From IMG/VR virus record IMGVR_UViG_3300006754_000108, positions 1 to 28,710 of that record: 28,710 bases of DNA; one strand, written 5' to 3'. This DNA is from a virus. The notes under the pieces were generated by a model that saw only the letters and a program-made list of their open reading frames with translations, was not told the origin of the DNA and did no database searches. The translations under genes were made by a program, and so were the position numbers. This document shows, one piece after another, positions 12,971-19,150 of the stretch (its first letter is position 1; the number at the start of each line of letters is the position of its first letter).

Positions 12971-12998
12971 TTGACATTTTAGCTGAATATGATATAAT
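12971..12998 (+). promoter_or_regulatory. Consensus sigma-70 promoter for the ParB-like gene
   Basis: TTGACA at 12971-12976 and TATAAT at 12993-12998 are both perfect, with a 16-nt spacer. It lies right after the reductase stop and about 45-50 nt before the ParB-like start, and probably also transcribes the downstream tRNA. Confidence 0.85.
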
Positions 12999-13050
12999 GA
13001 GATCATGTTGTTGAGAGAACAGCAAAACTTAAATTGAAAAGGAAACGAAA

Positions 13051-14244
13051 TTGACATCAGCACAGTTAAGACAGATAGCCTCCTCTGGCTACTCTCATTT
13101 GAACACAAACCAAAGAATTCAGGCAGCATGCGCCGAGCATACGAACTTTATAAAATCAAACTTTGTCTTGGGTGGGGACCTTCATATCCTTAAGACTAAG
13201 GACATAGTGTTTGACTATAAAGGAATGGCCCATCAACCTCGCCTAGGCAACCTGGATCCTACAACTGTAAGGAAATATAGCGCTCAAGCAAAAAACGGAG
13301 TAAATGGGGTTTTCGGGATCCGAAAGCCAATTACTGTCTATTGGAGCACAGTTCAGCAAAGTTTCATTGGTATCAAGGGTCATCATAGGTATTCGGCCGC
13401 AAGGGAAATAGGATATAATTATATCATAGCTCACATTGATGATATCTTTCCAAGCCTATCGAAGCAAGAACAAATTGATTGTCTGATGAGCGATAATGCA
13501 TTTGCTGATAATGGCATGCAAAGTTGTACTCGCAGTATTGCAGAGGCATTAAAAGCGACCCTACAGGACGAAACATTCATGCGCGCCGAGAGAAAGATGC
13601 AACAGCAATTGCAGGAAAAACTTAAATCTTGCAACGAAGAATCTAGAAGAAAAGAGATTGAAAAGAACATCAAGGAAATTAGTAAGAAAATTCGTGGACC
13701 ACTTGATATTCTGGCCCAAAAGTGGAATCCATCGACGGCTAGTTCGTCTAATAAGACATTAGTTACAAGAGCTTTAAATAACTACCAGGCGAAGCACTTG
13801 GTCCAGGTTTTTAACCATACGACTAAGCAAAGAAAAGCATATATTTCACATGCTGTCAACACGTTGGGAAATGATGATCTTTATTTTGATTGGGGCCAAG
13901 CGGTAACAAACAATAACGTGCAAATTAACTTGCCAACTGCCGAATTTCTCGCTAAGGTAAGAGAGTATAAGAAAGCGAATAATAGCGGAAAGTTGCCTTC
14001 TTCTTTTACTTTTTTTACTTGTATTCCAGGTGGAGTAAAAGATTATCAACACCTTTTTCAATTGCGCAGCCGTATAGAAGAGAGTATTATAGATAGAGTG
14101 GCAGATGTTTACCCATCCGTTCCTCGTCACTTTAAATTCTTAGGTCAGGTCCTTAATCAAAACTCTCCCTGTGCAGAAGACCCTAAGAAACTATATGATT
14201 CGTCCTATGTTACCAGCTATATTAAGCAGAGCAAAAAGAATTAA
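13051..14244 (+). CDS. ParB/Srx-domain protein
   Basis: 397 residues from a TTG start at 13051 with AAGGAAAC just upstream; no better in-frame ATG is present. Residues about 49-130 look like a ParB/sulfiredoxin domain: KDIVFDYKGMAHQPRLGN, a strand ITVYW, then GIKGHHRYSAAREIGY (108-122), corresponding to the GERRxxAA motif that binds or hydrolyses nucleotide in ParB proteins. A charged helical segment follows at about 185-225. The rest is unassigned. Stand-alone phage ParB-like proteins are often nucleases, CTP/ATP-binding switches or modification partners rather than partition proteins; no parA is visible here. It ends 10 nt before a tRNA and is followed by a Mom-like gene, so a link to DNA modification is possible. 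Confidence 0.7.
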   Translation: MTSAQLRQIASSGYSHLNTNQRIQAACAEHTNFIKSNFVLGGDLHILKTKDIVFDYKGMAHQPRLGNLDPTTVRKYSAQAKNGVNGVFGIRKPITVYWSTVQQSFIGIKGHHRYSAAREIGYNYIIAHIDDIFPSLSKQEQIDCLMSDNAFADNGMQSCTRSIAEALKATLQDETFMRAERKMQQQLQEKLKSCNEESRRKEIEKNIKEISKKIRGPLDILAQKWNPSTASSSNKTLVTRALNNYQAKHLVQVFNHTTKQRKAYISHAVNTLGNDDLYFDWGQAVTNNNVQINLPTAEFLAKVREYKKANNSGKLPSSFTFFTCIPGGVKDYQHLFQLRSRIEESIIDRVADVYPSVPRHFKFLGQVLNQNSPCAEDPKKLYDSSYVTSYIKQSKKN

Positions 14245-14254
14245 AAAGATATTA

Positions 14255-14328
14255 GCCCAAGAGACCCTATAGGAATGGGTGCCTCACCCCCAGTGAGGAA
14301 GCTGCAGGTTCGACTCCTGCCTTGGGCT
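14255..14328 (+). tRNA. Unusual tRNA-Gly (anticodon CCC), without encoded CCA
   Basis: All four stems are perfect: acceptor GCCCAAG/CTTGGGC (14255-14261, 14321-14327), D stem ACCC/GGGT with GG in the loop, anticodon stem CCTCA/TGAGG (14282-14286, 14294-14298) and T stem GCAGG/CCTGC with a canonical TTCGACT loop. The 7-nt anticodon loop reads CCCCCAG, placing CCC at 34-36 (14289-14291), which reads GGG. U73 with C35/C36 agrees with known bacterial glycine identity elements. Odd points: C33 replaces the near-universal U33, and the U8-A14-A21 core appears swapped to A8-U14-U21. It may be a functional tRNA, a decoy or a processed element. CCA would have to be added after transcription. Confidence 0.72.
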
Positions 14329-14348
14329 CAACCCTTTCCCCCCTGCTT

Positions 14349-14402
14349 TCTCCTCATAGTGCGGAGATAGTACTTGACAATCTCCCCAAAAAAGTGTAAT
14401 AT
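14349..14402 (+). promoter_or_regulatory. Promoter and operator-like inverted repeats for the Mom-like gene
   Basis: TTGACA at 14374-14379 is followed after 17 nt by TAATAT at 14397-14402 (TGTAAT at 14395-14400 with a 15-nt spacer is an alternative -10). The -35 box lies inside an inverted repeat GGAGAT (14363-14368) / ATCTCC (14380-14385). A third copy, TCTCC at 14349-14353, makes a second inverted pair with GGAGA. This arrangement suggests a repressor or activator site over the -35 element. Confidence 0.6.
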
Positions 14403-14437
14403 AAATATATAAACAATCATATTAATGAGGACTACAA

Positions 14438-15610
14438 ATGATTAGTGAAAAAAAACCAGATTACTCCGACCGTACAAAATATTGTAAAAAGGTTTCATAT
14501 GAAATTAAAGAGATCGATAAAATAAAAGCAATAGAGTTAGTTCAAGAAAATCATTACTCGCCAGTGATGCCGACACTAACAAAGCATTTTCTGGGTGTCC
14601 ACAAGGATCAAGATCTGGTTGGAGTAATCACACTCGGCTGGGGGACGAAGCCGATGCATACTATCCAAAAAGTTATAAACAAAGAGATGACGTCTAAAGA
14701 CTATTATGAGATAGGCAAGATGTGCATGCTAGACGAAGAGCTAGGTAATTCAGAGACGCAGATGCTCTCGCAAGTTGTTCGCTGGCTTAAGAGCAATCAT
14801 CCGGACGTTAAGTACTTATACACTCTCGCAGACGGCATCATGGGAAAATGCGGAAGCGTTTATCAGTCAGCAAACTTTTATTATGGAGGTGAGTATTGGA
14901 CTGACAGCTATATGTCAGCCAAGGGAGAAAAAGTACACCCAAGAACAACGCGGCAGCTTTGCTTTGATAACTGGGAGTGGCATTACAATTCTAAATCACC
15001 AGGCCATATTCCAGAGTTCAAGAAAACTCATGATGTAAAAGCTGCAGCAAAACGCCAGAGTTATACAGAAGCTCTCGAGTCCCTGATACACAATATTCCA
15101 CCAGAGTTAAGCGAAGAAAAGGCCTCTCAAATCCGCCAATTTTCAGCTGACTTTTATGAGTCCCGAAGCAAATATATTCGGGCATACGACGAATTCGTCA
15201 GTTCAAAGGCCGCATTCAGTCAACGACCAGTAGAGAAGTCTTTCTTGCCAAGTGTTCCAAAGGGCCTATCAGAATACCTCTCTAATCCGAAGAAAGATTA
15301 TATTAAGAAACAGCAAGTATTTTGGCTAACCCCTGAGTACATGAAACATATCGGTCTTCGCAAGATTAAAGGTAAAATGTTTAGATATATTTATCCTCTA
15401 AGCAAGAGTGCAAAAAAGCTCCTGAAAAAGAGTGAACAGATTGAGTGGAAGATCGGTTCCGGCGTATACCCAAAGGAAAATAACGGTGTATTGCAATGGA
15501 AAGAGATGATGGGAAGAAACGATTATCAAATTCTAGAAGAGATGCCAGCATGGGACTTGCAAGTCACTGAACACAACGAGAAAAATGTAAATGCACATAA
15601 AAGCAAATAA
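14438..15610 (+). CDS. Mom-like GNAT-fold DNA modification protein (candidate)
   Basis: 390 residues. The N-terminal part (about 20-170) follows phage Mu Mom: NHYS (38-41), a strand pair with LGVHKDQDLVGVITLG, EIGKMCM..E..GNSE (91-106) matching the ELNRM..D..PRNSES pattern, a helix, then YLYTLADG (126-133) and a GSVYQSANF segment (139-147). Mom is a GNAT-like protein that converts adenine in DNA to N6-carbamoylmethyladenine and protects phage DNA from restriction. Residues about 210-390 are additional, Lys/Tyr-rich and unassigned, perhaps DNA-binding. It has its own promoter with an operator-like repeat, and ATGAGG as a partial ribosome binding site. Another GNAT acyltransferase role cannot be excluded. 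Confidence 0.65.
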   Translation: MISEKKPDYSDRTKYCKKVSYEIKEIDKIKAIELVQENHYSPVMPTLTKHFLGVHKDQDLVGVITLGWGTKPMHTIQKVINKEMTSKDYYEIGKMCMLDEELGNSETQMLSQVVRWLKSNHPDVKYLYTLADGIMGKCGSVYQSANFYYGGEYWTDSYMSAKGEKVHPRTTRQLCFDNWEWHYNSKSPGHIPEFKKTHDVKAAAKRQSYTEALESLIHNIPPELSEEKASQIRQFSADFYESRSKYIRAYDEFVSSKAAFSQRPVEKSFLPSVPKGLSEYLSNPKKDYIKKQQVFWLTPEYMKHIGLRKIKGKMFRYIYPLSKSAKKLLKKSEQIEWKIGSGVYPKENNGVLQWKEMMGRNDYQILEEMPAWDLQVTEHNEKNVNAHKSK

Positions 15611-16960: not shown

Positions 16961-19150
16961 GTGAAAAAGTTATTATTATTTTCAGTTTTAACATTGGCCT
17001 GTTCCGCGGAAACAATATCATTTACGGAACCCCCACGAGATGGCGCCATTTCGGTACCACAAGATTCACAGGCACCCGACTATCATGTTATTGATTCTTC
17101 CGTTCGGCCGCCAATTATTGATGCATCACCCCCGGTGCTTCCATGCCAAAATTTGGATGTTTCGGATCATGAAAAGTACTGCTTGTGTCTCCCTCAATGT
17201 TGTGAAACACAAGAGTGGTATTGTCCTCCTACCCCAGACCAGACGATTCAATCTATGCAGGTTGTCCTAGAGGTGTGCGATGAAGAGGAGGTATCTTGTG
17301 TTTTCGGTGAGGATGAAGACTGCCCACCACCACAAATAATCCATAGGAGTCCATGCCAGGTTACTCATGAATGTCCCCCCGGTTCGACGAGAGATTTTTT
17401 ACGCTGGTTTGAGTGCCAACTGGAAGACGGCACATTCGGCCGTCAACGCGTCTTATGTGATAAGGGGGTGGTTGTCCATGGTCCTTGTACTTCTTGTGAC
17501 CCAGAAGTCTGTGATGGCATCGACAACGATTGTGATGACCGTATCGATGAAGACCCAATCCTCTGTGAGGACGAATGTGGCCCCGGAGTCGGCCTTTGCC
17601 AGAATGGGGTGTTGGTGGAATGTGTTAACAGGGATCCAGAAGAAGAAATTTGTAATTTTATCGATGATGACTGCGACGGAGAGATAGATGAAGATCAACG
17701 GAATGACTGCGATGGTTGTGGGGAACTCCCTTTGGAAGTTTGCGACAGCGTCGATAACGATTGTGACGGAAGGACTGATGAGTCTCTTTTACGAGAGTGC
17801 GAGACACAATGTAACCGCGGCCTTGAAACGTGTATCAACGGTCGATGGGGTTCCTGTACCGCACGTCAGCCAGTTCAAGAAATATGCGACGGCTTAGACA
17901 ATGACTGTGATGGCATCCCAGATGAAGGCATTAACTGTCTATGCACAATAGACCAAGTTGGGGTACTCATCCCCTGCGCTGAGCCGCCTTTATTCTGTGG
18001 GATGGGCTTTAAAACTTGTCAATGCCGCGACGTGGACTGTCAAATAATCGAGCTAACTCCCTGTCTGGCACTCTGTGTTTATCTCCCTGAGCGTGAGGGG
18101 GAAGAATGTCATCCTGGCATTGGTCGTCCCGTGGAGCCTGAAATATGTAATAATTTTGACGAAGACTGCGACAACCTGGTTGATGAACAGCTCACTCAAG
18201 CATGCTATACGGGTCCCCCTGGCACTATAAATGTGGGGATTTGCCTACCTGGAGAGCAGTCTTGCGTCGAGGGACAGTGGGGTGGCCCCAACGGAGACGG
18301 CCGTTGGACTGAAAATATTTGCAGCGGCGAAATTATACCAGCCGAAGAAGTCTGCGATGGTGCTGATAACGATTGCGACGGCGAGAACGATTACGGAGAG
18401 GACTTGCACCCAACCGATATCCTGTTAATTATTGACACTAGCGGTTCAATGAGTGGTGAAATTAGAGCAGTTACTGCAGCTCTATCCCGTTTCGGCCAGC
18501 ATTTCGCCGCAGAAGATGCAATCCATTGGGGCCTCATCATCGGCCCAACACGAGCACCCAATCCGGACTTTCCAGGCTCAGACCATGAGGTTCTAACACG
18601 CGTGTCGGATATCGCACCATTTCAGCAGTTCTTTGACGCATTTGTAAATTTGGACCCTTTGACTTTTGATGGGGGTTTCGAGATGCTCATGGACGCAGTA
18701 ATGTTATCTTTGAGAAACCTTAGCCCACTGCATGTTGACCTCGCCGCACGCAATTGGATCAGGGGAGTAGTATCGGTCCCTGAAAAGGATAATTTTATTA
18801 TTAACTGGCGTCGGAATACGGACCGAATCATTATCGTCTTTACTGACGAGAATGAGCAGTCTTATTTCAACCCGCCGTTTCATCGTAACGACCTTACTAA
18901 CGCGCTCGCTGCGGCACCAAACACAAAATTATACACTTTCGCTTTGGCCTTCTATTTCTGGGATGAGTTCGCGATTGCCACTGGCGGTAGAAATTTTGAC
19001 CTTACTTCTCGTGCTGGCCAAATGTACGATAATTTAATGTCGATTATAGATGAAATATGTCTGCCACAACCGGGAGAACAAGCTGGTTTTAGGAGGATTC
19101 CGCAGAGTGTAGTGAAATACCAGTTTGCTTCTGAATTGATGTGTTTTTAG
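16961..19150 (+). CDS. Lipoprotein with six MopE-type metal-binding repeats and a VWA domain
   Basis: 729 residues from a GTG start with GGAG (16950-16953) inside the end of thyX. A signal peptide MKKLLLFSVLTLAC gives a lipoprotein cysteine at C14. The next 470 residues are extremely rich in Cys and Asp and carry six copies of a CDxxDNDCDGxxDE motif, at about residues 183, 230, 260, 308, 396 and 464, matching the putative metal-binding (MopE) motif. A C-terminal von Willebrand factor A domain (486-715) has a complete MIDAS start, D492-T-S494-G-S496. Such proteins are surface adhesion or metal-binding proteins of bacteria, notably Myxococcota-like groups. Inside a phage metabolic operon it is unexpected; a role at the host cell surface, such as superinfection exclusion, is speculation. 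Confidence 0.85.
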   Translation: MKKLLLFSVLTLACSAETISFTEPPRDGAISVPQDSQAPDYHVIDSSVRPPIIDASPPVLPCQNLDVSDHEKYCLCLPQCCETQEWYCPPTPDQTIQSMQVVLEVCDEEEVSCVFGEDEDCPPPQIIHRSPCQVTHECPPGSTRDFLRWFECQLEDGTFGRQRVLCDKGVVVHGPCTSCDPEVCDGIDNDCDDRIDEDPILCEDECGPGVGLCQNGVLVECVNRDPEEEICNFIDDDCDGEIDEDQRNDCDGCGELPLEVCDSVDNDCDGRTDESLLRECETQCNRGLETCINGRWGSCTARQPVQEICDGLDNDCDGIPDEGINCLCTIDQVGVLIPCAEPPLFCGMGFKTCQCRDVDCQIIELTPCLALCVYLPEREGEECHPGIGRPVEPEICNNFDEDCDNLVDEQLTQACYTGPPGTINVGICLPGEQSCVEGQWGGPNGDGRWTENICSGEIIPAEEVCDGADNDCDGENDYGEDLHPTDILLIIDTSGSMSGEIRAVTAALSRFGQHFAAEDAIHWGLIIGPTRAPNPDFPGSDHEVLTRVSDIAPFQQFFDAFVNLDPLTFDGGFEMLMDAVMLSLRNLSPLHVDLAARNWIRGVVSVPEKDNFIINWRRNTDRIIIVFTDENEQSYFNPPFHRNDLTNALAAAPNTKLYTFALAFYFWDEFAIATGGRNFDLTSRAGQMYDNLMSIIDEICLPQPGEQAGFRRIPQSVVKYQFASELMCF

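Follow-up and report, generated by a model that had tools for sequence, protein, structure and literature searches.

A tRNA-Gly-like gene recurrently linked to phage mom genes is a candidate glycine donor for DNA modification

Introduction

Why does a tRNA-Gly-like gene lie directly beside a gene for a Mom-family DNA modification enzyme in the virus record IMGVR_UViG_3300006754_000108? The Mom protein of phage Mu makes N6-glycinamide (carbamoylmethyl) adenine, and where the glycine-like unit for this reaction comes from is a long-standing question. We analysed the complete 28.7-kb linear record (hereafter the window), in which an earlier note, made from the sequence alone, had placed a ParB-like open reading frame (ORF), a tRNA-Gly and a 390-residue Mom-like protein next to one another and had suggested that the tRNA might carry glycine for the modification. 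All three genes were found where the note had put them. We report that predicted genes for tRNA-Gly and Mom are paired in about six lineages of Mom, some of them represented by cultured phages of Microbacterium and Psychrobacter. On this evidence we think it quite likely that a dedicated Gly-tRNA and Mom form one functional unit in which the tRNA would donate glycine for DNA modification.

Results

The tRNA gene accompanies mom in the phage group of the window

The tRNA-Gly(CCC)-like gene, identified with ARAGORN, occupies 14255-14329 on the plus strand (G1 to U73 being 14255..14328). It starts 10 bases past the stop codon of the ParB-like gene, and mom (14438..15610, plus strand) begins 108 bases beyond it. 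We scanned 2.9 million viral contigs (IMG/VR) for the 3' part of this tRNA and obtained ten, with mom directly downstream in every one; the contigs are partial and their genes were called mechanically. In this phage group mom sits between the ribonucleotide reductase (RNR) gene and a gene for a 90-aa protein. The tRNA was present at nine of nine surveyed RNR loci with mom and at none of 78 without it, a few of these 78 being weak negatives because their contigs stop soon after RNR. With a count of 0/78, we rejected the idea that the tRNA occupies this site irrespective of mom. Mapped on the RNR tree, tRNA and mom switch state jointly seven times, and well supported branches force at least five of these switches; two contigs with near-identical RNRs differ in carrying (L125) or lacking (L171) the tRNA-mom pair.

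Relatives have exchanged the gene that precedes the tRNA, which provides an internal control. This gene is ParB-like in the window, L005 and L095, GmrSD_N-like in L136, a GHKL ATPase in L007 and a member of an unknown family in L126 and L134, while L125 and L008 have no upstream cargo. Since this gene is exchanged or absent while tRNA and mom stay together, the passenger position is free and the tRNA-mom pair is not. Judged by gene order, the window tRNA-Gly is not a chance neighbour of mom.

The tRNA keeps charging identity and has lost decoding features

Bacterial glycyl-tRNA synthetase (GlyRS) reads G1-C72, C2-G71, U73, C35 and C36. The window tRNA keeps every one of these bases, as does each tRNA of its clade. 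Its anticodon loop is CC-CCC-AG, with C33 instead of U33, position 8 is A8 and CCA is not encoded. The clade loops read CCCCCAG, TGTCCAG, CTCCCAG, TGCCCAG and TGACCAG, plus the 8-nt CAATCCAG; C35, C36, A37 and G38 are fixed and positions 33 and 34 vary. U33 is found in one of the eight distinct clade tRNAs, compared with 58/58 other phage tRNAs in the same data. Two clade tRNAs have 8-nt anticodon loops, and the window tRNA, through C33, departs from the combination of a 7-nt loop and U33 that marks an elongator. Stem pairing is nevertheless maintained by compensatory changes, seen in four of the five anticodon-stem pairs, with a score that none of 500 shuffles reached. Collectively, these features make the clade tRNA-Gly look built for charging and unfit for normal decoding.

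Gly-type tRNA-like genes recur beside mom in other lineages

We examined 159 Mom loci from all families for nearby tRNA-like genes. Because relaxed ARAGORN alone was too noisy (9/172 control windows gave matches), a stem descriptor was adopted. With it, the sequence near mom gave 16 Gly-type tRNA-like genes in 178 kb, whereas 601 kb of control sequence gave one, which is a normal tRNA-Gly. When the anticodon was left free, CC at 35-36 (Gly) occurred in 15 of the 22 near-mom matches, compared with one match, non-Gly, in 184 kb of control. The neighbourhood survey of Mom-like genes that the earlier note had proposed therefore gave a strong Gly-type enrichment beside mom. Often the linked genes are missing the GG of the D-loop, the D-arm or the T-loop. 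A comparison of 15 tRNAs from six lineages shows G1, C2, C35, C36, A37, G71, C72 and U73 to be invariant, which partly reflects selection for members found with the descriptor and not for those found with ARAGORN or the covariance model. Mapping the tRNA label on the Mom tree gives eight changes, of which at least six are forced.

Lambdoid phages with a Mu-type Mom carry a tRNA-Gly(UCC) upstream of mom; the pattern matches three contigs, with mom in 3/3, and this tRNA-mom unit was unmatched in E. coli genomes. In a Mom group whose members have a ParB_N protein overlapping the mom start (L329/L339, L340, L341 and L342), tRNA-Gly-like genes directly follow mom. These have G33, the 8-nt loop CATTCCAG, or neither D-loop GG nor a normal T-loop; L330 resembles this group. 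The L341 gene was found by eye from L340 homology, and its acceptor stem carries a compensatory change. In Psychrobacter phage vB_PmaS_Y8A two tandem D-armless tRNA-like genes, read by eye, lie between mom and terminase. Microbacterium Appa-type phages have ParB, Mom and an annotated tRNA-Gly in 10/10 records. The stem descriptor adds tRNA-like genes after mom in L011, L012, L014, L031 and L054, and a D-armless one with the loop CGACCAG after mom in L298.

Several individual loci were also recorded. At the position that the lambdoid tRNA takes upstream of mom, L288 has what looks by eye like a decayed tRNA-Gly(TCC) and L290 what looks like a 3' tRNA fragment, as if the tRNA had recently been lost. 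Phage vB_PmaS_Y8A (L343, L085) has two distantly related Moms, one with ParB and the tandem D-armless tRNA-Gly-like genes and a second placed at the record's right end. On a Flavobacteriales metagenome-assembled genome contig (L169:62-1000) Mom is flanked by a tRNA-His, 15 nt upstream, and a downstream tRNA-Pro, not by Gly. In a Lactobacillus amylovorus plasmid-prophage (L345:1544-2723) a ParB_N gene overlaps mom and no tRNA-like gene was seen. A 185-kb contig (G002), whose mom likewise has a tRNA-Gly, carries a tmRNA gene (L111:9641-9927).

The window encodes a full Mom protein with a helical insertion

The window protein matches the Pfam Mom family PF25680 at E 5.1e-49 (167 bits, curated cut-off 27.1) and phrog_1384 at 9e-32, and a profile of 16 of its relatives recovers Mu Mom (8BV8) across its length at 4.8e-26. 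The AlphaFold2 (AF2) model, with a predicted local distance difference test score (pLDDT) of 88.6, aligns with 8BV8 at Z 21.7 and 2.7 Å over 196 residues; the next GNAT has Z 12.7. The protein contains the motifs HYS, EIG.M, GNSE, ADG and VYQ, and shares with Mu the HY, E, N, D, Y and C-terminal YP of (near-)invariant alignment columns. Profiles and model thus strongly support 14438-15610 as coding for a full Mom protein. The Mom-like GNAT assignment of the earlier note, and the structural comparison with Mu Mom that it had advised, were both borne out.

Its reading of an extra C-terminal domain was not. The Mom profile, split at 150/165, gives two matches (aa 21-175 and ~aa 299-333), the C-terminal part is itself a piece of the Mom fold, and the extra part is a lineage-specific helical insertion between the two matches (about aa 180-293, ~14976..15316, plus strand), as indicated by the alignments, the split profile and the model helices. 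The window, L005 and L125 have a long form of about 112 aa, whereas the remaining members of the clade have one of about 30 aa. A role of the long form in binding the tRNA is unsupported, because the tRNA-linked Moms L006 to L010 lack it. Fem and L/F-transferase were not among the fold matches listed for the Mom model, which excludes nothing.

Elsewhere, the Mom match spans 1283-1512 bases in L016, L020, L035, L048, L071 and L075, compared with the usual ~774, possibly owing to an intein or other insertion. Two adjacent Mom genes, one of them divergent, occur at G005 43329-44661 and G006 310460-312131 (contigs of L017 and L051).

The ParB-like gene is exchangeable cargo

The ParB/Srx-like protein (397 aa; 13051..14244, plus strand, TTG start) matches the phrog ParB family weakly (7e-4 in the window, 8e-5 in L005), and the window protein had no Pfam match. 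Its AF2 model (pLDDT 43) was too poor and was not used. The window gene was found in only four IMG/VR contigs, adjoining tRNA-mom in each. The earlier note had cast this protein as a DNA partner of Mom. The ORF and its weak ParB resemblance stand, but an obligatory partnership was rejected for the window clade, where the gene is replaced by unrelated ones or missing while the tRNA stays. A looser ParB-Mom link is possible because predicted ParB_N proteins adjoin mom in other lineages.

The cargo genes matched GmrSD_N (1.4e-14), NsnA (1.8e-25) and HATPase (2.8e-13), and at L134:7518-8948 (same contig as L089) a Mom is N-terminally fused to a PD-(D/E)XK nuclease domain (PDDEXK_11, 2.5e-5). Replacement of the ParB-like gene by restriction-like genes, together with this fusion, suggests that it may be an exchangeable attack module. 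The cassette might then work as a restriction-modification-like weapon in which Mom shields phage DNA and the variable cargo attacks unmodified DNA, an idea that we hold tentatively and that would add to a glycine-donor role of the tRNA rather than exclude it. The GmrSD-like and GHKL ATPase cargo and the L134 fusion favour it, as do a type II restriction endonuclease annotated as overlapping the mom start in Synechococcus phage DSL-LC03 (L253:2373-3543) and the Mom-nuclease fusions reported in a jumbo-phage review (PMC7824862). Carriers L125 and L008, however, have no cargo, and a recognised nuclease domain is absent from the window ParB-like protein.

Other features of the window

A promoter-like TTGACA-16-TATAAT (12971..12998, plus strand) precedes the ParB-like gene and the tRNA; it is perfectly sigma-70-like (12/12 in a consensus scan), which is not evidence of function. 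A second promoter-like site (14374..14402, plus strand, 10/12) sits between tRNA and mom and suggests that the two can be separate transcripts. The window also encodes RNR, ThyX, a DnaB-like helicase, DNA polymerase III alpha and GroES-like and Clp-like genes. At 16961-19150 this phage genome encodes a protein that is predicted to be secreted and that combines a VWA-like domain with six MopE-type metal-binding repeats.

Discussion

A model for glycine transfer

Mom is likely, in our view, an aminoacyl-tRNA-dependent DNA-modifying enzyme whose substrate is a dedicated tRNA-Gly that often does not decode and sometimes has no D-arm. Gly-tRNA is proposed as the donor because the enzyme has a GNAT fold, the product contains glycine and the linked tRNA keeps its charging features while losing those used by the ribosome. 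Glycine carriage was the suggestion of the earlier note that fared best, given about six Mom lineages, the Gly anticodon specificity and the decay of decoding; from these we infer the donor role. Host GlyRS would charge the phage tRNA-Gly, which ribosomes would use poorly or not at all. The glycyl group would then pass from the tRNA to Mom, which would place glycine on N6 of adenine in the phage DNA. Direct acyl transfer would yield N6-glycyl-adenine. In a subsequent Smiles-type rearrangement the glycine amine would attack C6 via a five-membered intermediate and so convert this compound into N6-glycinamide adenine, the product known from Mu; the old N6 would become the amide, and a separate amide source would be unnecessary. 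Having its own tRNA would spare host glycyl-tRNA for translation, and Mom lineages without one would use the host tRNA.

A number of observations weigh against this model. Nine close Moms (52-70% identical) in related phages occupy another locus, flanked by DNA polymerase III/dUTPase and IMPDH-type genes, and a search near them found no tRNA, so that we rejected the notion that every Mom of the clade has a tRNA; nor was a tRNA found near mom in the region of Mu examined. A dedicated tRNA is therefore not required. Genes that lie side by side can also be transferred together as passengers. After Mom itself, the closest folds are GNATs that use CoA, and the jumbo-phage review (PMC7824862) names an acyl-CoA, for instance glycyl-CoA, as a possible Mom donor. 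The stem descriptor itself demanded a G1-C2 acceptor and a CC anticodon, and several of the tRNAs were found without that filter. Finally, the lambdoid and Microbacterium tRNAs retain U33 and may decode.

Alternative roles for the tRNA

This last point, with the canonical loops of the same examples, the frequency with which phages carry tRNAs and the use of GGG for 67/513 Gly codons in the window genes, would fit an ordinary translation-aiding tRNA that stands beside mom through shared inheritance. We consider this unlikely: 7/8 distinct tRNAs of the window clade have lost U33, some have 8-nt loops, and the wobble base is free (C, U or A) and therefore specifies no fixed codon. The D-arm or T-loop is lost in other lineages, Gly alone recurs across about six of them, and a window-type tRNA is the sole tRNA on the 60, 64 and 30 kb contigs examined.

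The tRNA-like RNA could instead regulate or sense for mom, as a Com-like or T-box-like switch, or titrate GlyRS. In every lineage it is no more than a few hundred bases away from mom, and in Mu the translation of mom is tightly controlled by Com, whose gene is annotated upstream. Its position varies, however, between upstream, downstream and the opposite strand, mom of the window has its own promoter-like site past the tRNA, and the conserved bases are those of charging identity with no pairing to mom; we regard such a role as quite unlikely. A decoy or replacement tRNA that resists host anticodon nucleases would explain why the variable part is the anticodon loop, as evasion would predict. 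It leaves the link to Mom and the loss of D-arm and T-loop unexplained, a tRNA that does not decode could not stand in for one that has been cleaved, and we find this explanation very hard to credit.

Significance

If true, donation by a charged tRNA would settle the donor in the Mom reaction and would be, as far as the literature searched shows, the first aminoacyl-tRNA-dependent DNA modification. No report of the tRNA-Mom link was found in that literature, whose scope excluded subscription papers and preprints, and a prior report is possible. Glycine donation would connect DNA chemistry with the pool used in translation, explain why phages retain a lone, decayed tRNA-Gly and provide a genome signature for finding such systems. 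The cultured phages Appa (Microbacterium foliorum) and vB_PmaS_Y8A (Psychrobacter) make the idea testable.

Comparison with known systems

Mu Mom (PDB 8BV8) resembles the window protein in fold, motif set and the Mom profile over the whole protein. The two are 27-30% identical, and the window protein differs in its large insertion and linked tRNA-Gly, whereas Mu has Com upstream of mom. The Mom-nuclease fusions of jumbo phages (PMC7824862) join Mom to restriction-type partners, much as in the L134 PD-(D/E)XK fusion; the available part of that review proposes acyl-CoA donors and does not mention a tRNA link. Microbacterium phage Appa (NC_047972) has the same three parts, ParB, Mom and tRNA-Gly, in ten phage records, but its tRNA follows mom on the opposite strand and retains U33, and its Mom and ParB are very distant from those of the window. 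In Staphylococcus aureus, tRNA-Gly copies with altered or lost GG18-19 and weak EF-Tu binding donate glycine to cell-wall FemXAB (PMC4052509). There, too, charging identity is kept, decoding or EF-Tu features are lost and glycine transfer is non-ribosomal; the acceptor is peptidoglycan rather than DNA, and the likeness to the Mom system drawn here concerns the tRNA and the glycine transfer.
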